This document shows positions 54,327-64,000 of a DNA stretch of 64,000 nt, one piece after another. The stretch comes from Verrucomicrobium sp. BvORR106 (lineage in GTDB: Bacteria > Verrucomicrobiota > Verrucomicrobiia > Verrucomicrobiales > Verrucomicrobiaceae), in assembly GCF_000739655.1 (NCBI RefSeq), contig NZ_BATR01000016.1, forward strand, positions 1 to 64,000, written 5' to 3'. A model generated the notes under the pieces. The model worked only from the letters and a program-made list of their open reading frames with translations, had not been told where the DNA came from and did not search any database. The translations under genes and the position numbers were made by a program. The stretch's first letter is position 1, and every line of letters starts with the position of its first letter.

Positions 54327-54581
54327 GTGCGAAAAGCCGTCCACAGCACCCTCTCGAAGATCTTCTGCGATCACATCCGCAGTTTGAGGGAAAAGGCTGG
54401 CATGACGCAGCGAGACCTGGCTGTAGCCTTGGGCCGCGAGCATGGAATGGTGGCGCGGATTGAACTTGGTGAACGACGCGTAGATTTGGTAGAAGCCTTC
54501 GAGCTTTTCAAAGCGCTAAAGGCCGATCCTGAAGCCGAGGCTGCCACAATAATGCGGAAGTTCTCTGCTCTAGGTACATAA
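54327..54581 (+). CDS. XRE-type helix-turn-helix regulator
   Basis: The protein has 84 residues from a GTG. The helix-turn-helix is IRSLREKAGMTQRDLAVALG followed by HGMVARIELGERRVDLVEAF, the Cro/C1 pattern. It precedes the cysteine desulfurase by 155 bases on the same strand. Small XRE proteins often act as controller proteins for restriction-modification and defence loci. That role here is inference. Confidence 0.85.
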   Translation: MRKAVHSTLSKIFCDHIRSLREKAGMTQRDLAVALGREHGMVARIELGERRVDLVEAFELFKALKADPEAEAATIMRKFSALGT

Positions 54582-54736
54582 ACCACTTGTTCACCTACCG
54601 TTACCGGTCGCGTGGCACAAGGCAGACCCGAGGAGTGACTGATCGGTCGACTGGTCGACCTGCTTGCACTAAAGCAACCGGACTCCAATCTCACAGAATC
54701 GGATGGCAAGCTCCTAAAGTGATCTTAGAGTGCACT

Positions 54737-55864
54737 GTGATCTACCTCGACCACAACGCCACAACCCTCCCATTTCCTGAGGCGATTGATGCGATGCTGC
54801 CCTGGCTCCATCACTGCGGCAATCCATCAAGTATCCATGCTACAGGAAGGGAAGCTAGGCGTGCGGTGGAAGCCGCTCGTCACAGCGTTGCGGAGTACCT
54901 AGGAGCAGAGGCGCAACAGGTCATCTTCACCAGCGGGGCCACTGAAGCTAACAACACCGCTATTCATTCGGCGCTGCTGCGGCAGCCCTCAAAACGCCAT
55001 CTGATCACGTCCTCCGTTGAGCATTCTGCTGTATTGGCCTACTGCGATTACTTGGAGCAGCATCACGGCGTCGAGGTCACTCGCCTTCCCGTAGGCATTG
55101 ATGGAAGCCTCCCTATGGACGCGCTCCGCAATGCCCTCCGCGATGACACCGCCCTAGTGTCCCTGATGTGGGCGAACAATGAGACGGGCGTTATGTGGCC
55201 CATCAGCGAGTTTACTAAAGTCTGCGTCGAAGCGGGAGTACCATTCCACACGGACGCTGTGCAGGCAGTCGGCAAGGTGCCGGTACAGTTTGCGACATGC
55301 GGCGCCAACTACCTCTCCCTCAGTGGACACAAGTTCGGTGCCCCCAAGGGCATCGGTGCACTCATTGTCGCCGACCCCGAGCGATTCATGCCACTCCTCC
55401 ACGGAGGCAAACAGGAACAAGGTCATCGGGGCGGCACCGAGAACGTTGCTCATATCGTGGCGTTAGGAGCTGCCGCTGAGCAGTCGAAGCTTCAGGGCCG
55501 CACGCGGTGGGAAAGAGTGGCTAAACTGCGAGATCAACTGGAAGTTCGGGTCGCCCAACGCTTCCCGGAGGCAGAAGCCCATGGAGTGACAGTACTTCGG
55601 CTGCCCAACACCTCCAACCTGTACTTCCCCGGCATGGATAGCGATGCCTTGGTCACCTACCTCGACGCCCAAGGCATCGCAGTGTCCTCTGGCTCGGCTT
55701 GCCTGGAAAGCGCCTTGGCGCCCTCTCATGTCATCCTCGCCATGACAGACTCCTACGAACGTGCCAGCGAATCCATTCGCATCAGCCTTGGTCCAGCCTC
55801 GACGAATGAGGAGGTGCAACGCTTGGTCGACGCTGTGGAGATTTACGCAACGCTAAACGCCTAG
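54737..55864 (+). CDS. Cysteine desulfurase, DndA/SspA/IscS-like
   Basis: The protein has 375 residues from the GTG at 54737, where homologues start (IYLDHNATT). It is a PLP enzyme: SGATEANNTAI near 66-76, HTDAVQAVGK near 171-180, PLP Lys199 in SLSGHKFGAPKGIG, and catalytic Cys322 in VSSGSACLESALAPSH. It moves sulfur from cysteine to an acceptor. No IscU or IscR is nearby; instead a PAPS-reductase-like gene lies in the opposing operon, so a role in DNA sulfur modification is more likely than Fe-S assembly. Its stop overlaps the convergent GHKL gene in CTAG. Confidence 0.9.
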   Translation: MIYLDHNATTLPFPEAIDAMLPWLHHCGNPSSIHATGREARRAVEAARHSVAEYLGAEAQQVIFTSGATEANNTAIHSALLRQPSKRHLITSSVEHSAVLAYCDYLEQHHGVEVTRLPVGIDGSLPMDALRNALRDDTALVSLMWANNETGVMWPISEFTKVCVEAGVPFHTDAVQAVGKVPVQFATCGANYLSLSGHKFGAPKGIGALIVADPERFMPLLHGGKQEQGHRGGTENVAHIVALGAAAEQSKLQGRTRWERVAKLRDQLEVRVAQRFPEAEAHGVTVLRLPNTSNLYFPGMDSDALVTYLDAQGIAVSSGSACLESALAPSHVILAMTDSYERASESIRISLGPASTNEEVQRLVDAVEIYATLNA

Positions 55865-58275
55865 TCCCCTAGTGAGGCGATGAGATCTTCCATGCCAAAG
55901 TTCAGAAGGAACTCGGAGTAATAACTTGAGAATACGTCTCGAAGGTAGTCCTGCAAATCGATGGGCTTCTCTCCCTGCTTGATCTCATACTTCTTGTTCT
56001 TTGTGATGGTGAAGAGGAAGATAGTGTGGAAGTAAACAGATGAGATGTACTTGTTCTCCGCGAGCTTTTTCTGTTCCACCGTTATGTTGCCCAGTCGGCT
56101 GAGGTAATTTCGCAGAACCTTGCTATCCATATTGATTAGGACCTTTTCGAGGTTACCCTCACCGTCCACCATAGGGTGCATCGGAATCCCCCAGCCCATC
56201 TCAAGTCCTGATTCTTCCAGTTTCGACCAGGTCAATGCATCCGGTGCATCTGCCGGAGGCGTTTCGAAGACCATCTGATAATCAGGCAATCCCATTGGCG
56301 GCTCAGCCTCGTCTTCGACTTTCTTTACGTCTTTAGGCTTCTCAACAGGGTCTACGATCTTGACCCAAAATCGACATTCGTGGTCTTCCGGCCCTCCCAA
56401 TGTGGCTAGAATCTCGATCTCCTCGCCAACTTTCACTTCACCGGTCGCCCCCAGACCAATTCGGATCGTTCCTTCTTTCGGGCTGGATTTGCTAATGTCT
56501 AACAATTGCTCAGGGGTATCCACCTCACCTGCCTGAGTGCCACCTTCGGTACTGTTGGTGCGGCGCTGGAGAATCGAAACCTTGAGATCGCCCGGGTCAT
56601 CACCGCGGTCAAAATAGGAGTCCTCGACATCCGTTGAGAACTGAATGGTTCGGTCCTCTCCATCTGGAATAGAGATAAACTTGTCCCCGTTCCCAGACTT
56701 AAGTTTGAAGAATGAGGGGTATCGCTTCGGGTGAAAGGGCGCTTTTACTTTAGCCTCTTTTGGTTTTTCGGGCTTTTCGGGCTTCTTCTTCTCTTCGTCC
56801 TGCTTTTCGATTTTGAAAGTTTGGGTCAGCAGCTGCATCAGGTCCTTATTGAAGGGCAAATTCTTTGAGAAGGACCTCAGCAAGTCCTTCGCATCTCCAC
56901 TCCCTACATCGAAGGTATTCTTCCGCTGCTTGTAAACTTCAGACAACCTACCCTTGATCAGCAGATCCCTTACCATGTTCCGCAGTTCTTGAGTCTTATC
57001 TCCGGACTTCAACCTATCCCGAGAAGCCATGAAGAGCTCTGTCCGGAAGTCGAACTCCAGCCCAGTACAGTCCACATGAATCAACAGGTGATTCTTCAGC
57101 AACGGCATCTTCAGCGTCGTGGAAATGAATTGTGTACCGATGTGACCATGGACCTGACCATTTAGAGAGAACAGAACGGACATGCCATCGTGAAAGAACT
57201 CCGTTTCAATGGCTTCCTTGGTATCCTTGGCAGTTTTACCTTCGACTTTAGCTTTGAAAATGTAGCAGGTGGCCTTGATGGTTCCGGTGTCTTTGTGTGA
57301 GAACTCCTCAGTGAAGTGCTCCTGAATGTACTGATTCTCTTCGCCATCAAGCCGTCTCTTGAGTCCGAAAGTATCACCTTCCAAAACCTTGTTGTTCGGA
57401 TACCTCTCAGGACTATCCTTGAGAAAGATTGGTAACGCTGGCTCAAACAGGTACTGATTCAATGCCCGCCGAATCTCCTGAGGAAGAGCCCCTCGAGTGC
57501 CCGACGGAAGCTGGTAGTCAAATAGCTTGATGATGGTCCCGGTAGTGAACTTGCGCCCTGCCAGTCCTATATCCAACTCCGTAATGGGGAAGCTCGGAAT
57601 CTTGCCATCGATCTTCAGGTACTCATACCACGTATTCTTCTTCGTCTGCTTCTCCTCTGCTGTCATGGGATGCTTGCGCACCAAGGTGAAGCCAAACTCG
57701 CCAGATCCGTCAAAGCGCTTTGAACCAATAAGTTGGTAACGATGCTCTCCACAGAAGACGATGGCACCAGTACCGCCCATATTGTACTTGCCTTGCACAA
57801 ACGGTATTTCGTTCTTGTTGCCTCTGAGGAGAGAAAGAAATGTGCGCTCAAAATCTTCAGGATGCTGCCCCTCCCCGTCGTCGTAGATCGTGAGACAGGG
57901 TCTGGGTCGCGAACCGGCAGCTAATATTTGTATCGCATGAGACTGCTTGCGGCGGATTGCCTGGAGATGCCAATTTTTATTCTCTGGGCTAAAGAACCTC
58001 CCAACCGCTTCATGCATAGAATTAGGAGCAACCTCGGACTTGGGATTGATTCCCGACTCCAAGCAACGCCTCATCAAGATAGCGTCGATTGAGTTCGTGA
58101 GTTTCTCTACCAGGGCCGCAATTGGAGACGATTGCTGATTTTCGATGACTCCAATATTATTCTCGTTCCCTCCTAGGGGAGCCCAGGTTATCGTGCGATC
58201 AGTTTCTATCGCGAGAAGGACCTCAACTTCCGACTCTAAGCTTATAAGTTTATCGAACATCGAGAAGCTCATCAT
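55861..58275 (-). CDS. GHKL-type ATPase, large, defence-associated
   Basis: The protein has 804 residues. The N-terminal ATPase shows the N box (IAALVEKLTNSIDAILM, Glu57 and Asn61), G1 (LTIYDDGEGQHPEDF, 128-142) and a glycine loop (YNMGGTGAIVFCG, 165-176). A transducer-like part follows to about 480 (LIHVDCTGLEFDFRTELFMA). There is a lysine-rich linker near 495-525 (EKKKPEKPEKPKEAKVKAPF) and a C-terminal domain that is acidic and beta-rich. It resembles MutL/Hsp90/topoisomerase ATPases, not SMC or helicase types. Its start shares ATGA with the DGQHR gene's stop. It is not a standard Dnd or Ssp component. Confidence 0.85.
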   Translation of the reverse strand: MMSFSMFDKLISLESEVEVLLAIETDRTITWAPLGGNENNIGVIENQQSSPIAALVEKLTNSIDAILMRRCLESGINPKSEVAPNSMHEAVGRFFSPENKNWHLQAIRRKQSHAIQILAAGSRPRPCLTIYDDGEGQHPEDFERTFLSLLRGNKNEIPFVQGKYNMGGTGAIVFCGEHRYQLIGSKRFDGSGEFGFTLVRKHPMTAEEKQTKKNTWYEYLKIDGKIPSFPITELDIGLAGRKFTTGTIIKLFDYQLPSGTRGALPQEIRRALNQYLFEPALPIFLKDSPERYPNNKVLEGDTFGLKRRLDGEENQYIQEHFTEEFSHKDTGTIKATCYIFKAKVEGKTAKDTKEAIETEFFHDGMSVLFSLNGQVHGHIGTQFISTTLKMPLLKNHLLIHVDCTGLEFDFRTELFMASRDRLKSGDKTQELRNMVRDLLIKGRLSEVYKQRKNTFDVGSGDAKDLLRSFSKNLPFNKDLMQLLTQTFKIEKQDEEKKKPEKPEKPKEAKVKAPFHPKRYPSFFKLKSGNGDKFISIPDGEDRTIQFSTDVEDSYFDRGDDPGDLKVSILQRRTNSTEGGTQAGEVDTPEQLLDISKSSPKEGTIRIGLGATGEVKVGEEIEILATLGGPEDHECRFWVKIVDPVEKPKDVKKVEDEAEPPMGLPDYQMVFETPPADAPDALTWSKLEESGLEMGWGIPMHPMVDGEGNLEKVLINMDSKVLRNYLSRLGNITVEQKKLAENKYISSVYFHTIFLFTITKNKKYEIKQGEKPIDLQDYLRDVFSSYYSEFLLNFGMEDLIASLGD

Positions 58276-59543
58276 CCACCTGCTTTAATTCTGGCCGCAG
58301 CGGTTTTTGCATCAACCTCGTGCGCATTCATAAATGCTTGCTCAAGCTTGCCATTGTCGCCAGCTTTCAGCAGCCCAGCCAACTTAAGCCACATCAATGT
58401 GGCACAAGTAAGGTCGGTTTTTGTAACCCGCCGCATCTTGAGATTTGAGGCGTCAAATAGTAGCCCAGCCCATGGAGACATCTGTAAGGTTCTGTCGATC
58501 TTTGCCAATGCTGGAACTGCGACCTTCAAGTCGATGGAATTTATCTTGCAGTACGCAAGACAGTCACCTAGTACTGACACTCCAACAGGCCTAAATATGA
58601 GCGATCCTCCCGTGAATCCTCCACGGTATGGACCAGCATCAGCTGGCGCTTTAAAATATTGCTTCAGCTCGGAAAAGGAAAAGGCAAGCAACTGGAAAAC
58701 TTGCGACATTTCCTTACACATCGAATCTAATTCAATTTTAGGTTTCCTGAGCATCTTGAAGGATGCCATTTGTTTAGTCTTCCATCCACGTCCTCCCAGC
58801 AAGACCCGCTCGATAAAATCATAAAGCGCCTGAATACTTGTGAAAGATTTCTTGTCAGTTACAGCCAAATTCTTGGTTTTGGACGCAGCAATGACTTCGT
58901 TCCGACTCAGGTAAGGATCATGGTACAGGAGCCAACGAGTTACAATCGCAATAGAGTCGTCCTCATCGAGTGCGATAATCTCTCCGAGCTTCACAGGCTT
59001 AGCATATCTATTGAGAGTAGAAAAGAGTCGACGAGTCCGCTCAATTCCTGATGAACTGCCGTTATGCGCAACAAAAATAACTGCACACTCTTCTTTGTCG
59101 TGCAAGGAGTCCTTCTGAAGAGCCACTTTGATTCCCTCGACTCTATGCTGACCATCGATTGCAAAAATTTTCTCCTGTCCGGTCAATTCAAGGACACCCA
59201 CTGAATTCCTCACAAAATCAGTTGGCTCAGAGTAGCGCGAACGTTCTGTCGAATCCAAATCGATTTCAATCCATCTGGGCTCCCCTTCGTATATCCCTGC
59301 GATAACTGCGTTAAAAAAATGTTGCTTCTGATTTCGGATATAGTCGCTAATTTCCGTGGATCTACCGGTCAGCGCCCGTTGCAACAACTCGTTTAACGTC
59401 TTATTTTTGTGTATTTCCTCTGCGGGTTTGAATCTATCGGCGATTTGCCTGAACTGCATTAAAGTAACGTAGTACACCCAATCTTCAACCTGACCACGTA
59501 AGCAAGGGAGTAGCAGTGGCGACGAAAAGTTAGAAACACTCAT
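58272..59543 (-). CDS. DGQHR-domain protein (DndB-like)
   Basis: The protein has 423 residues. The DGQHR motif is at 130-134 in KIFAIDGQHRVEGIKVAL. Upstream YYVTLMQFRQIADRF and downstream RLFSTLNRYAKPVKLGEIIA fit the DGQHR/DndB family, related to ParB-like proteins. DndB regulates dnd operons, and other DGQHR proteins accompany 7-deazaguanine and phosphorothioate systems. It overlaps both neighbours by four bases, so it is co-translated with the GHKL and GIY-YIG genes. Confidence 0.9.
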   Translation of the reverse strand: MSVSNFSSPLLLPCLRGQVEDWVYYVTLMQFRQIADRFKPAEEIHKNKTLNELLQRALTGRSTEISDYIRNQKQHFFNAVIAGIYEGEPRWIEIDLDSTERSRYSEPTDFVRNSVGVLELTGQEKIFAIDGQHRVEGIKVALQKDSLHDKEECAVIFVAHNGSSSGIERTRRLFSTLNRYAKPVKLGEIIALDEDDSIAIVTRWLLYHDPYLSRNEVIAASKTKNLAVTDKKSFTSIQALYDFIERVLLGGRGWKTKQMASFKMLRKPKIELDSMCKEMSQVFQLLAFSFSELKQYFKAPADAGPYRGGFTGGSLIFRPVGVSVLGDCLAYCKINSIDLKVAVPALAKIDRTLQMSPWAGLLFDASNLKMRRVTKTDLTCATLMWLKLAGLLKAGDNGKLEQAFMNAHEVDAKTAAARIKAGG

Positions 59544-60028
59544 CTATAGATTTCTTTTTTCAGTTTTCCTAACTTTCCTGGAAACCTCTCATTGTTCGGA
59601 GGCATCAGAGCTTCCAGCAGTTCGTCCTCTGCCTTTCCTGCATCTTTTTCCGACAACGCAGCAAAGTAATAGTAAAGATTGTTCTCCCAAAGCTTTAACA
59701 TCTCTCCGACCCAAAATCTTGGCTTGGATGCGTTCACTTCATCAAAATATTGTTGGAAGCGTGTCTGAAAGCTCTGCGCTTCGGTCTTACCGACGTAAAG
59801 GATATATCCACACCACGCAATATTCACGTTATCAGGGCGGACAACAAACGCGTAGACTCCCTGGGCGTTGGGAAGTTGGCCTTTGTTCTGTTTCTTTGCC
59901 TGAATAGATTTCCAATCAAGCTTTACGGTAGGATTGAACGCCATGAACTGTTTTTCCCAAAGACAAAATCGACGAAGGTAATTCCGTCCGGAGGAAATTT
60001 CACGATTTGTTAGATCATGCTTAGCCAT
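59540..60028 (-). CDS. GIY-YIG nuclease domain protein
   Basis: The protein has 162 residues. The GIY-YIG signature is degenerate but complete: GVY at 57-59, YVG at 78-80 in GYILYVGKTEAQSFQTRF, catalytic-type Arg90, and an acidic residue in KDAGKAEDELLEALMPPNNE near 130-140. It could cut DNA next to or instead of the modification. It overlaps the DGQHR gene by four bases and follows the PAPS-reductase-like gene by three bases. Confidence 0.82.
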   Translation of the reverse strand: MAKHDLTNREISSGRNYLRRFCLWEKQFMAFNPTVKLDWKSIQAKKQNKGQLPNAQGVYAFVVRPDNVNIAWCGYILYVGKTEAQSFQTRFQQYFDEVNASKPRFWVGEMLKLWENNLYYYFAALSEKDAGKAEDELLEALMPPNNERFPGKLGKLKKEIYR

Positions 60029-60031
60029 ACC

Positions 60032-60877
60032 CTATTTTTGGCACATTAAACAAGCTTCGGTGGGCGTGGTCGACTTTCCGCTAAACACAGATAATAACTT
60101 CCCGTCAGACTTCGGGGCGGCCTCTCTGATCCCGGCCGAGAGCACCCGATCCCGCTCCTTTCGATCCAAGAGTGAACTCAAGGGAGCACCCTCCATCCAG
60201 GTAAAGCGCTTATTAGGATCATTGGGATCAATGGTTTCGTACTTCATAGCTTCTTCAAAGTATTCAGGATACGTCTCCAAGAGCTTCACCCATTCATAGG
60301 GAGCCTGGAAAAAGCAAAAAGTGCAGCCAGAGTTGGTGCGCCCCCACTTCATAAATGTAGGTAGGCCCAGACCGCTATCCTCCAAGATGCGGACGACACC
60401 ATCATAGTCGATTCCCGCCTCTTTGAGTGGATAGCGAGTTTTGATGTTTGGCTTCTTGCTAATATAACCCACACGATCCTCATCAGCCCGCAGCCCGACA
60501 TAGCTAACGACGTTGTCGTTGCCAACGTGAGCCTCAAACGGTTTCAGCTTGAGCATCTTCGTGCACCAGCGATTCTGGGGTGAGGGCAGGTAACCCCCGA
60601 AGACCTTGTGCCAGTGGTCAAATCCCGCCTTGGCATTCAGGCGAATGATCTTCTTACCCAACTCAGCCTCCAGCCTGGCAAGGTACTCATAGGTTTCAGG
60701 CAGTTCCTTCTGGGTGTCACAGAAGACATACTCCATACCGTCATGCCGAAATTGCTCCAACCCCTTGACTCTACCGGCCATCAGGAGGGCCAGCGCCGAG
60801 CTGTCCTTGCCTCCGGACACGTTAAGGACGTGGCGCACAGGAAGGTCGTTGCTGAATTTGACCGTGAGCGGAATCAT
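60032..60877 (-). CDS. PAPS reductase/ATP-pyrophosphatase family protein (DndC/SspD-like)
   Basis: The protein has 281 residues. The PP-loop SGGKDSSA is at 21-28. Cys-containing motifs RWCTKMLKLKPFEAHV, GCTFCFFQAPYEWVKL and CLMC at the end could ligand an iron-sulfur cluster, as in DndC. YVGLRADEDRVGYISKKPN follows the usual family order. It would activate the DNA backbone or handle sulfur, together with the cysteine desulfurase. It overlaps the large ATPase gene by four bases. BrxP of BREX type 4 belongs to the same superfamily and is an alternative. Confidence 0.88.
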   Translation of the reverse strand: MIPLTVKFSNDLPVRHVLNVSGGKDSSALALLMAGRVKGLEQFRHDGMEYVFCDTQKELPETYEYLARLEAELGKKIIRLNAKAGFDHWHKVFGGYLPSPQNRWCTKMLKLKPFEAHVGNDNVVSYVGLRADEDRVGYISKKPNIKTRYPLKEAGIDYDGVVRILEDSGLGLPTFMKWGRTNSGCTFCFFQAPYEWVKLLETYPEYFEEAMKYETIDPNDPNKRFTWMEGAPLSSLLDRKERDRVLSAGIREAAPKSDGKLLSVFSGKSTTPTEACLMCQK

Positions 60878-63800
60878 TTTTCTTTAGACAGGTTATCCCA
60901 CAACAGGCGCGACAGAGCCGCAAGCGAAATTTGCGATTTGTCTTTGGGAATGTGTTTGCGGAGTTCCAACAGAAGGTTCTCCATTTCGCGGGATTGATCT
61001 GATGTCAGACAAAACACGAGGTGTTTCTCCACTCCGCTGCGCGGGGTCACTGCAAGGCGGATCGCTGTCTCAGGGAGAGAGCCATCCTTCAGGAAACAAG
61101 TGGATAACACCCGGTTGAACTGGTCTGCAAAGGCATAAATGCGCTCTCGGAAGACCACTTCATCGCGGTCATTCCACCGGCTAGGTGGGCGGCGCGTGAG
61201 CAAGCTGCCGAGTGATTCCAACCATTCAGGCTCATCCAGCTCGGCATCACCAAGCTTCAAACAGAACGCCCGGAAATCGGGGTCGCCCAGGCCAACTAGC
61301 AGGGTCTCCGCTGTGCCCGCGATGGCTGAACGCCACGCTTCAAGAGGACCCTTCGCTTGGAAAGCGTCCAAGATGAGCTCCGCCATGCGCTTCTGCAGGC
61401 CTTCAAAACTTTGGCGAAGCTCCGCAATGGATAGCCCGATTTTTTTTGCCAAGGACTCGGTGTCGACCTTTTCCTTTGCATCCAGATCAATGCCAAATGC
61501 TTTGGGAATGTCACGGAAGATCAATTGCGCAGGCTCCCTAGCCGCCTCAATGGCTTTTCGCAGAGCAAGAGTCTCGATAGAGAGCTGGTCAGTGTTTCGT
61601 ACATAGTCAGGAAGCCCTGCAACAAAACTGTAGAGAGGGCGCACCACTGATAGAAGACGGGACTTGTCCGATTCTTTCGATTCAATGGTCGAGGCTAATT
61701 CCGTGATCAGCGTCTTTCGTAAGCCGGTAATCCGGCAGAGCTGGAATTCGAACGTTTCTGGAGCCTTGACCAGGCGCATCATGAGATACTCTTCGATCTC
61801 CGGCTGAAACACATCGTCTTCATACACGGCAATCTCCGTCTCGTGAACGATGAAAACTACCAGGAGCAGAATCGGGATGAGACCGTCGCGCACACCGTAA
61901 GGACTGGACCGCAGCAGTTCGTAGAGCTCACTGACCGGCACGCGTTGGTCTGGAACCTTTTCCAAACGAGTCATTACCGCATCCAGCGCAGGCCGAAATT
62001 GCAGAGGATCCCCAGTCCTGCCGGCTTTTGGGAACACAATGCCCCATATGCCATCGGTTTCACGATGAAGCCTGCCTGCTTCCAGAACGGACAAGTAGAT
62101 TGACTTTTCCGGGGGAGCCTTGTCTTCTGGCAGACTCAATTTGGGCTCCGCCGCATCCTCCAGCATCGCCTTGAAAAGCTTCTGGCGGGCAGATGCTGCC
62201 GCGGAGCTAAGGACGTGACGGTTGATCAGTTCATTGCGAACCGAAGGTGCTTTATCGTAGAGTCTATCGCAAAGGTCGGAAAGGAACGACTGCAGCCTGA
62301 CCGTGCGCCCGATCGACGGATCGGCTTGGCCGGCATAATACCAAGCGACTCCAGGGGTCTCCGAACTGGCATCAGCCTCATTCCGGAAACCGACCAACTG
62401 TTGGAGACCAGCATCGAGCAACTGCCTGCTAGCGGCAATTTGCCGGGAGACTTCCTCTGCAGCAAATCGATCATCCTTCAGTTCGGGAGTGTTTCGCTCC
62501 ACCCATTCCCAACGCTCCAACTCCAGGGCGCTGCTCGTGAGGGCATCCAGTGGTGCGCTGATGGCGACCAATTGCTCAGCGCTATGGACCGCTTTCGCGC
62601 CCCACAAAATCGAAGCCTGGCGTTCGGTTTCCGATTCGCAAAGCACTACGATGACAATTCCGGAGGCTGGATAGACTGCCCGGATCCCACTTGCTTCAGC
62701 GGTGAACTCGGTAGCCGTGACGAAGCGAACATCAAAGTACCGCAGATTGCCCGTGAGGATGTAGTGCCGACGGGCAACAATAGGACAGGCGTCCAGTTTT
62801 TCTCTCGCGACCGTCGCAATGGGGGAAGCATGCGTCAACTTCTCCCTCGCCTCTTCAATGCGCTGTTCAAGGTTTACACTCGCGTGGGGCCAGAGGGAAT
62901 AACCTGCCTTGCCCCGGTTGAACAAAATGCCACGCTTAACCAAGTCCCTGAGACGAGTCGTAGTTCCCCCTGGTTGACCAAGTGCTACATTGACGATGGC
63001 TTCCGTGGGACATAGCTCCGCCGCAGCGATCACATTCAAGATGCCAACTGTCTTGAGCAATTGCTGAATCTCCAGTGGCTCGTTCTCGGCACTCCGGATA
63101 CGTGCATCAATATGATTCCAATGGCTGCGAAAGCTCTGTCCGCTCAACCGTTGACTAAAATTATTTGCCGCAAAGTCGTAAAAGTCCGCCAAGCGATAGA
63201 CAACGTTAGGAGAGGCCTCACGCGTGGCAAAATCCTGGAGTGCGTAAGGTTCCGAGGACAGCAGGAAGCTAAAGAGGGAGCGCTCATTCTGTCCGAACCG
63301 GCGAAAGAAACGAGAAAGTACGGGAATGACGGCCGGATGAAGGGGATACAAGGCCGAGGCAGCCTGAATCAACGCCGTCCTCGCAGCCGTGGGACCATAC
63401 ATTCCCAGATCGAGAACTTCGGTCATCAGTTCCCTCGAACGTTTTTTCCATCCTCTGAGATGCTCACTCTCCGAATCCAGAGCGAGCGCCGCAGCTATTA
63501 AAGTGACCACTTGCCCTAAGGGCTGAGAGAAACTGATCTCTTCAAATCGCTCCGAAACCTTCGCCCACTCCAACTGGGCGGTACCCGAGAGCTTCTCGGC
63601 ATAGTCGGTGAAACCCTGATGCAGCAGCCCCACAAGATGAATGGGATTAGGACCGCTCCGAGAAGCGCATTCCGCAATTTGTTGCAGGAAATAGACGTCT
63701 TGCTTTTCCGGATTCAAAGCCGCGTACTCAAGAAACTTGCCCAACTCATCGACAATGAGAATGACGCCGCCAGCCAGTTCCTTGGAGACAAGCTCTCTTG

Positions 63801-64000
63801 AGATCTGCTCCACCAGCGAGACAGCTTGAGAGTCTGCAACATGACCAGACGCGATGGCAGCCGCGATTTTGTCTCTGGCTGAAAGCTTCTTCCTACCATC
63901 GATGGTGCGATTGAGCGACGTCTGAATCCCTCGCAAGATGGCCACGGCAAGGGGCTCTCGCGAACCGGTGACAAGCACAGTCAGTGGCTCTTTGAAATTG
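60874..64000 (-). CDS. Large P-loop ATPase, partial at right edge (SspC/BrxC/DptH-type candidate)
   Basis: About 1040 residues are visible and the N-terminus lies beyond the window. A Walker B-like strand is clear near the start of the visible part (GGVILIVDELGKFLEYAALN), followed by QQIAECASRSGPNPIHLVGL. The long remainder has helical repeats and a winged-helix-like part (EIQQLLKTVGILNVIAAAEL). Walker A must lie to the right of 64000. The order ATPase then PAPS-reductase-like gene, overlapping by four bases, is the order of sspC-sspD. I cannot name the family with certainty. Confidence 0.75.
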   Translation of the reverse strand, partial: NFKEPLTVLVTGSREPLAVAILRGIQTSLNRTIDGRKKLSARDKIAAAIASGHVADSQAVSLVEQISRELVSKELAGGVILIVDELGKFLEYAALNPEKQDVYFLQQIAECASRSGPNPIHLVGLLHQGFTDYAEKLSGTAQLEWAKVSERFEEISFSQPLGQVVTLIAAALALDSESEHLRGWKKRSRELMTEVLDLGMYGPTAARTALIQAASALYPLHPAVIPVLSRFFRRFGQNERSLFSFLLSSEPYALQDFATREASPNVVYRLADFYDFAANNFSQRLSGQSFRSHWNHIDARIRSAENEPLEIQQLLKTVGILNVIAAAELCPTEAIVNVALGQPGGTTTRLRDLVKRGILFNRGKAGYSLWPHASVNLEQRIEEAREKLTHASPIATVAREKLDACPIVARRHYILTGNLRYFDVRFVTATEFTAEASGIRAVYPASGIVIVVLCESETERQASILWGAKAVHSAEQLVAISAPLDALTSSALELERWEWVERNTPELKDDRFAAEEVSRQIAASRQLLDAGLQQLVGFRNEADASSETPGVAWYYAGQADPSIGRTVRLQSFLSDLCDRLYDKAPSVRNELINRHVLSSAAASARQKLFKAMLEDAAEPKLSLPEDKAPPEKSIYLSVLEAGRLHRETDGIWGIVFPKAGRTGDPLQFRPALDAVMTRLEKVPDQRVPVSELYELLRSSPYGVRDGLIPILLLVVFIVHETEIAVYEDDVFQPEIEEYLMMRLVKAPETFEFQLCRITGLRKTLITELASTIESKESDKSRLLSVVRPLYSFVAGLPDYVRNTDQLSIETLALRKAIEAAREPAQLIFRDIPKAFGIDLDAKEKVDTESLAKKIGLSIAELRQSFEGLQKRMAELILDAFQAKGPLEAWRSAIAGTAETLLVGLGDPDFRAFCLKLGDAELDEPEWLESLGSLLTRRPPSRWNDRDEVVFRERIYAFADQFNRVLSTCFLKDGSLPETAIRLAVTPRSGVEKHLVFCLTSDQSREMENLLLELRKHIPKDKSQISLAALSRLLWDNLSKEK

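Follow-up and report, generated by a model that had tools for sequence, protein, structure and literature searches.

What takes the place of the restriction genes in a phosphorothioation (PT) locus that lacks the usual ones? This question is raised by positions 54327-64000 of the window, a 64,000-nt stretch of contig NZ_BATR01000016.1 from Verrucomicrobium sp. BvORR106 (the contig itself continues to 98,281 bp). In the PT defence systems known so far, the modification module is joined to SspE, SspFGH, DndFGH or DndI, and each of these damages DNA. The locus probably encodes a complete Ssp PT-based restriction-modification system, the restriction arm of which consists of a GIY-YIG protein, a DGQHR protein and a GHKL ATPase; this subtype is undescribed in the literature searched. 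The original prediction, made from the letters of the window, had proposed a variant PT system containing a new module, either an effector or a sensor. At the sequence level, the genes and the comparative evidence support this proposal.

The modification module

Gene names were assigned from the list of open reading frames (ORFs) and from profile searches (Pfam, PADLOC and NCBIfam). The features of the locus are as follows:

54327-54581, plus strand: XRE-family helix-turn-helix (HTH) protein, 84 aa (Pfam HTH_31 E 5e-9, HTH_3 E 3e-8)
54737-55864, plus strand: SspA cysteine desulfurase, ~375 aa, likely GTG start, with a longer ORF starting at 54587 (PADLOC SspA E 3e-127, DndA E 2e-124)
55861-58275, minus strand: GHKL ATPase, 804 aa (motifs, AlphaFold model, HATPase_c_3 in relatives)
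58272-59543, minus strand: DGQHR protein (DndB-like, ParB/sulfiredoxin fold), 423 aa (NCBIfam TIGR03187, Pfam DndB)
59540-60028, minus strand: GIY-YIG protein, 162 aa (conserved catalytic residues, profile of relatives)
60032-60877, minus strand: SspD PP-loop sulfurtransferase, short form, 281 aa (PADLOC SspD E 2e-93, Pfam PAPS_reduct E 1.5e-9)
60874-64000, minus strand: SspC AAA+ (Orc/Cdc6-type) ATPase, 1145 aa, start codon beyond the window at 64311 (PADLOC SspC E 0)
64325-65260, minus strand: SspB (DUF4007), 311 aa, on the same contig (G000:C194, same numbering) and wholly outside the window (Pfam DUF4007 E 3e-67)

The gene order on the minus strand is sspB-sspC-sspD-giy-dgqhr-ghkl, and xre and sspA converge on this operon from the plus strand. 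Three operon joints have a 4-bp overlap, and the others are gaps of 3 and 13 bp. The stop codons of the convergent genes sspA and ghkl overlap. The plus-strand XRE regulator and DndA/IscS-like desulfurase, as well as the minus-strand operon of overlapping genes, were found as first described, and every gene named at that time is in the ORF list. The large P-loop ATPase is SspC, and the PP-loop PAPS-reductase-like protein is SspD.

SspA carries the pyridoxal phosphate lysine motif SGHKFGAPKG and the catalytic-cysteine motif SGSAC. SspD has the PP-loop SGGKDSS and six cysteines, and a Walker A motif (GDFGSGKSS) is present in the part of SspC that lies beyond the window. When the contig was extended past 64000, as the original prediction had suggested, the next gene was sspB. 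It lies 325 bp past the window end and is contiguous with sspC and sspD in one operon. Because SspB was found just outside the window, the PT gene module SspA-B-C-D is, as far as gene content can tell, complete at the locus. SspABCD makes single-stranded PT marks, and the host DNA would be expected to carry PT modification. From its position, the XRE protein may be the regulator of the locus. Promoter and terminator scans of the locus gave fewer matches than shuffled sequence.

BrxC and BrxP are homologues of SspC and SspD, respectively, and BREX type 4 also has DUF4007. The operon could hence be read as a BREX type 4 system (BrxP/SspD, BrxC/SspC and DUF4007 with PglZ and BrxL). BREX profiles do match the core in PADLOC (BrxC E 6e-121 for SspC, BrxP E 3e-10 for SspD), but the Ssp profiles far outscore them for both proteins. 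PglZ, which is kept in all type-4 loci surveyed (PMC12839542) and which the original prediction had proposed looking for, had 0 matches in the whole 99.9%-complete genome, while the control search detected it elsewhere. BrxL was not recognised among the genes adjoining the operon; no genome-wide BrxL search was made. The missing PglZ refutes this reading, and its probability is negligible. A role in sulfate assimilation, also raised at the outset, was rejected as well: SspD scores as SspD and sits with SspB and SspC, between SspC and the downstream genes, and not with sulfate-assimilation genes.

Comparison with known restriction arms

The first reading of the locus had it that GHKL, DGQHR and GIY-YIG genes replace the usual restriction genes and that desulfurase, PAPS-reductase and large ATPase fit Ssp. 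Both points were borne out: the system is Ssp and not Dnd, and neither SspE nor SspFGH was found at the locus.

SspABCD-SspE systems share the SspA/B/C/D genes and have a restriction arm built from a DGQxR protein of the ParB-like superfamily (N-terminal DGQQR in SspE, DGQHR here) and a nuclease. SspE differs in uniting DUF262 and HNH in a single polypeptide. The present locus has separate genes for sensor and nuclease, a nuclease of the GIY-YIG instead of the HNH type, and a GHKL ATPase in addition. A protein with DUF262 (GmrSD_N, DGQQR) and HNH (GmrSD_C) was not among the operon proteins, and the only GmrSD_C match of the genome is unlinked (contig C135).

SspABCD-SspFGH systems have the same modification module and a multi-gene restriction arm, but Walker-A SspF, SspG and FtsK-like SspH are absent from the locus. 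PADLOC SspF/G/H gave no match among the window proteins, and the flanking genes are DUF932, clamp-like and ligase-like.

The likeness to DndBCDE with DndI or DndFGH lies in the DGQHR protein, which belongs to the DndB Pfam family, and in the occurrence of GIY-YIG+DGQHR beside dndBCDE in Rhizobium NXC14. GIY-YIG (URI) nucleases have been noted near dnd genes (PMC10853773). Unlike Dnd, the locus has SspB/SspC instead of DndD/DndE, and its DGQHR protein is not a DndB equivalog. In agreement with the first reading, DndD and DndE profiles had no match among the locus proteins.

Linkage of the GHKL ATPase to Ssp genes

A scan of 84,980 species genomes yielded 63 GHKL relatives, and linkage was counted for the 41 with at least 5 kb of flank on both sides. 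SspB, SspC or SspD adjoined GHKL in all 41 loci (all three in 36, with most of the remaining loci ending inside the operon), which excludes chance co-location. An SspA-like gene was nearby in 14 of the 41, as expected where IscS serves. Pairwise GHKL identities track those of SspC, SspD and SspB (r 0.68-0.73). On plasmids, GHKL relatives of at least 45% identity were beside SspBCD in 3/3 cases, and SspB was present in only 94 of 72,556 plasmids. Those weaker plasmid relatives (25-31% identity) that were inspected were not linked to Ssp.

In the host family, 3 of 59 sampled genomes had GHKL and 6 had SspB; all three GHKL genomes were SspB-positive and linked (chance of co-occurrence ~6e-4 by simple counting). 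SspB was present in 12 of the 289 genomes sampled from the phylum, and GHKL was linked in two of them (the genome studied here and G169). Two further genomes of this sample had a divergent orphan GHKL beside a C5 methylase or a fragment. GHKL is a mark of an Ssp subtype: it is nearly always with Ssp, yet occurs in a minority of Ssp systems.

Locus L091:6983-10500 (genome G046) holds a divergent orphan GHKL relative of 782 aa. It adjoins a gene for a C5-cytosine methyltransferase, and the surroundings contain no Ssp genes. This suggests that the wider GHKL family also pairs with base-methylation systems.

The linkage bears on a further explanation, namely a solitary PT epigenetic system with unrelated defence-island genes that came together by accident. 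Modification genes of the Ssp and Dnd kinds that have no restriction partner do exist (PMC8092258), and the GC content of the cassette differs from that of sspC and sspD (0.44-0.49 for cassette and GHKL vs 0.53-0.55, and 0.565 in the remaining window). The three operon joints with 4-bp overlaps, the same gene layout in L045/L111 and in an operon that a probable prophage has split (see below), and the 41/41 linkage across many phyla argue against an accident, and we regard this explanation as very improbable.

Fold and conservation of the GHKL ATPase

The original identifications of the GHKL and GIY-YIG proteins are weak in the window proteins and solid with relatives. The window's own GHKL copy had no passing Pfam GHKL match, while HATPase_c_3 matched 44 of 49 relatives. 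These 49 full-length relatives are spread across phyla and have a mean column identity of 59% over 800 residues. The GHKL motifs (N-box E..N..D, G1 DxGEG and G2 GxYNMGGxG) are invariant in all of them. The mean pairwise identity in the same loci was 55% for GHKL, 33% for SspB and 30% for SspC. Such strong conservation argues against GHKL recognising sequences or directly contacting phage proteins, which change fast.

In the AlphaFold model (pLDDT 78), residues 36-458 form a GHKL+S5 transducer module with a Bergerat fold. The closest structures were Hsp90 (Z 20.7), MORC3 (18.1), Topo VI-B (16.6) and MutL (15.6). The C-terminal half consists of a linker, an immunoglobulin-like (Ig-like) beta-sandwich (~512-640; Z up to 9.1, a middling value) and a small alpha/beta domain (~665-804). 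The last ~130 residues had no structural match, which is a weak result and not proof of a new fold. A sequence-based search of the PDB with the GHKL profile gave no match, and neither a restriction endonuclease (REase) nor a TIR domain was recognised in the C-terminal half. A match of the C-terminus to Hachiman HamB (E 0.0013) was discarded as chance, since it occurred in only 1 of the 49 relatives. The protein is a member of the GHKL ATPase superfamily and its family is unnamed: PADLOC has no model for it, and the RefSeq plasmid copies are annotated 'hypothetical protein'.

MORC and paraMORC proteins are alike in their N-terminal GHKL+S5 module, intact ATP motifs and association with DNA modification systems (PMC2292703, PMC8011034). 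ATP-driven DNA looping has been proposed as their role in the same papers. An association with phosphorothioation genes is not described there, and the helicase or methylase partner is absent here. paraMORC1-5 (Iyer 2008) have family-specific C-terminal domains such as REase (paraMORC3) or TIR (paraMORC4), and the C-terminal model of the protein studied here shows an Ig-like sandwich (Z ~9, middling) and an alpha/beta part.

Exchange of cassettes between SspD and GHKL

Cassettes were classified in 68 loci and placed on a GHKL tree. The GIY-YIG+DGQHR cassette was found in 21 of the 68, in two subfamilies plus more distant versions. Other loci had DUF262 (GmrSD_N) with a Ser/Thr kinase, DUF262 with SIR2, a three-gene set of a PIN-like protein, an AAA ATPase and one more gene, a GHKL-histidine-kinase set resembling the one in PMC8011034, or true SspE (c3, PADLOC SspE E 4e-246). 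In some loci, two cassettes were stacked, and in L033 GHKL directly followed SspD with no cassette between them. At least 21 cassette changes are required on the tree (L044 is mislabelled as a histidine-kinase set, which shifts the count by at most 1). For instance, GHKL, SspB, SspC and SspD of L031 and L036 are 83-88% identical, and their cassettes differ (histidine-kinase set vs DUF262+kinase). The lower GC of cassette and GHKL in the window, given above, also counts in favour of exchange.

Exchange was also seen close to the host. Within the host family, L111 (apparently the same contig as L045) is an exact copy of the window layout, and L112 has this layout with DUF262+SIR2 in place of GIY-YIG+DGQHR. 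Compared with L080 (G200:C19) of the same genus, SspC of L112 (G317:C1) is 95.6% identical, and GHKL is present only in L112. The DUF262+SIR2 cassettes of the two loci are only 32-38% identical. The turnover around the stable modification core is thus very fast.

As almost the same SspC is found in a system without GHKL, GHKL is probably dispensable for the modification core, and we assign it to restriction instead of modification. The other assignment would have GHKL help SspB/C/D find or remodel their target sites. Its adjacency to sspB/C/D in 41/41 loci and the correlated identities would agree with this. But GHKL is missing from most SspB-bearing genomes (present in 2 of 12 in the phylum sample and 3 of 6 in the family sample), published SspBCD modify DNA without it (PMC8092258) and, together with the L080 system, this makes a part in modification quite unlikely.

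Several further arrangements were noted in Ssp loci. In L094, L080, L007, L039, L043 and L112, the genes after SspBCD encode a protein with DUF262 alone and a SIR2 protein, a candidate NAD+-targeting, PT-linked effector pair. In L015, L016, L020, L034, L036, L057 and L082, DUF262 and a Ser/Thr kinase-like protein follow SspBCD (Pfam Pkinase E 3e-20 in L036), and the latter is a candidate PT-linked kinase effector. L009:15288-17500 and L044:12720-15452 have a second, MORC/MzaB-like GHKL ATPase and a GIY-YIG-like protein by SspD, with the constant GHKL also present. L089:1982-5477 has SspABCD without the constant GHKL, and a MORC-like GHKL ATPase and a DEAD-type helicase by SspD. In L083, L085 and L087, Ssp loci without GHKL, an SspF-like ATPase of 760-800 aa has an extra N-terminal domain (PADLOC SspF matches from residue ~170 in L083).

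The GIY-YIG and DGQHR pair

The window GIY-YIG protein was not matched by Pfam GIY-YIG; four relatives were (best E 6e-6). The family profile matched UvrC GIY-YIG structures (best 1yd6, E 0.004). In an alignment of 14 relatives, Y59, Y78, G80, R90 and N146 were invariant and E134 was present in at least 90%. Given these conserved residues, the protein should be an active nuclease. The DGQHR protein passed TIGR03187 (98.3 bits, cut-off 58.9), in line with its first identification, and matched Pfam DndB (E 5e-22). Its motifs DGQHR, RRxF, NRYA and DExD are invariant in 16 relatives.

GIY-YIG adjoins DGQHR in nearly all loci with this DGQHR family. The exception is L026, where a longer DGQHR-like protein is beside DUF262 and not GIY-YIG. 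The pair also occurs in Roseobacter, next to an SspABCD set that lacks this GHKL, in Rhizobium K1/93, next to SspABCD and an FtsK-type (FGH-like) module, and with Dnd in the NXC14 locus mentioned above. Since they stand side by side in K1/93, the FGH-like module and GIY-YIG+DGQHR are different units. Because the pair also travels with Dnd, it probably depends on the PT mark or the PT machinery generally, and it is probably a portable cassette that follows PT rather than the Ssp proteins. The original prediction can be refined in two respects: GIY-YIG+DGQHR is a portable cassette, and GHKL is the constant part of the subtype.

The same data bear on a different division of labour within the Ssp system, in which the DGQHR protein is a DndB-type operon regulator, nuclease activity falls to GIY-YIG alone and GHKL acts as a second effector in its own right. 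The Pfam family membership points in this direction, DndB being an ATP-dependent repressor of dnd transcription (PMC12704722), as does the fact that GHKL accompanies many other cassettes and stands without one in L033. On the other hand, the DGQHR protein scores too low for a DndB equivalog (53.5 bits, cut-off 328), and the locus already has an XRE protein. Moreover, GIY-YIG and DGQHR were co-inherited even into a dnd locus that retains its own dndB, which fits a two-part effector better than a promoter-specific repressor. We consider this division unlikely.

A contig classified as viral (IMG/VR contig IMGVR_UViG_3300037424_001491, 50 kb) contains the same genes in two parts. One end (L108:611-6225) has SspB-SspC-SspD together with the first half of a GIY-YIG gene, the rest of which lies ~35 kb away with DGQHR and GHKL (L100:6032-10349). 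Between the halves are phage genes (a repressor-like gene, tape measure, tail fibre and Dam methylase). The contig is probably a prophage inserted in the GIY-YIG gene of the same operon type, a reading that does not account for terminase and amidase genes past GHKL. A virus carrying GIY-DGQHR-GHKL alone, as L100 might imply, was dropped in view of the genes at the other end.

Flanking genes

Past SspB (L003:1637-5342, equal to G000:C194:65637-69342), genes were found for a DUF932 protein and for two proteins resembling the DNA polymerase III beta clamp and an ATP-dependent DNA ligase. They are possibly a mobile element adjoining the defence operon.

Proposed mechanism

In the preferred reading, SspA would draw sulfur from cysteine. 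As suggested by homology, SspD would insert this sulfur at specific backbone sites of the host DNA, working with DNA-binding SspB and the AAA+ ATPase SspC, a pair that scans DNA. The sspD-linked GIY-YIG, DGQHR and GHKL genes would form the restriction arm in place of SspE or SspFGH. The GIY-YIG protein would be the DNA-cutting nuclease. The DGQHR protein, as a member of the ParB/sulfiredoxin superfamily, may be an NTP-driven switch that reads the DNA status and restrains or releases the nuclease. In SspE and DndI, the DGQQR motif couples PT sensing to NTP hydrolysis and controls the HNH nickase (PMC9646914, PMC11662687), and by analogy the pair may work like a split SspE or DndI. The GHKL+S5 protein is predicted to dimerise into an ATP-operated clamp, like those of MORC, MutL and Topo VI, which would load on DNA and license the effector on unmarked DNA. 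We infer self/non-self logic, nicking, clamping and phage defence at the locus from these relationships.

Some observations weigh against this mechanism. The same cassettes are also found without this GHKL, which means that they do not strictly require it. When the DGQHR profile is compared with that of DUF262, the alignment is confined to the surroundings of the DGQ[HQ]R motif (hhalign probability 9%), so that the split-SspE comparison rests on superfamily membership taken from the literature. The best-known DGQHR protein is DndB, whose repressor role was described above, so that the DGQHR protein may have a purely regulatory role, and a nuclease motif was not recognised in the C-terminal half of GHKL.

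Significance

The modification core and each domain were already known, so that the locus does not form a category of its own. A GHKL partner of Ssp (GHKL paired with SspBCD/DUF4007) is not described in the open-access PMC literature searched, a scope outside which most subscription journals and preprints fall; GHKL/MORC is absent from PMC10853773 and PMC12839542. What stands out is the attachment of one strongly conserved, unnamed GHKL to SspBCD in many phyla, with effectors of changing class between them. This offers a handle on the open question of how an effector discriminates self from non-self when only a small fraction of sites carry sulfur.

Tentatively, and with less confidence than for the restriction arm itself, SspBCD and GHKL may be seen as a general PT-marked chassis. 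The GHKL clamp would read the outcome of the PT scan and license whatever effector is plugged in. The effectors would include DNA nucleases (GIY-YIG or SspE), SIR2 proteins that deplete NAD+, Ser/Thr kinases, RNases of the PIN-like type and histidine-kinase relays; the SIR2, kinase and PIN-like types are predicted to act in a PT-dependent way without cutting DNA. The small gene set and the ready-made natural swaps (the window vs L112) make the hub hypothesis directly testable. If it holds true, PT immunity would extend beyond DNA cutting to abortive-infection outputs, and a single conserved ATPase would be its hub.

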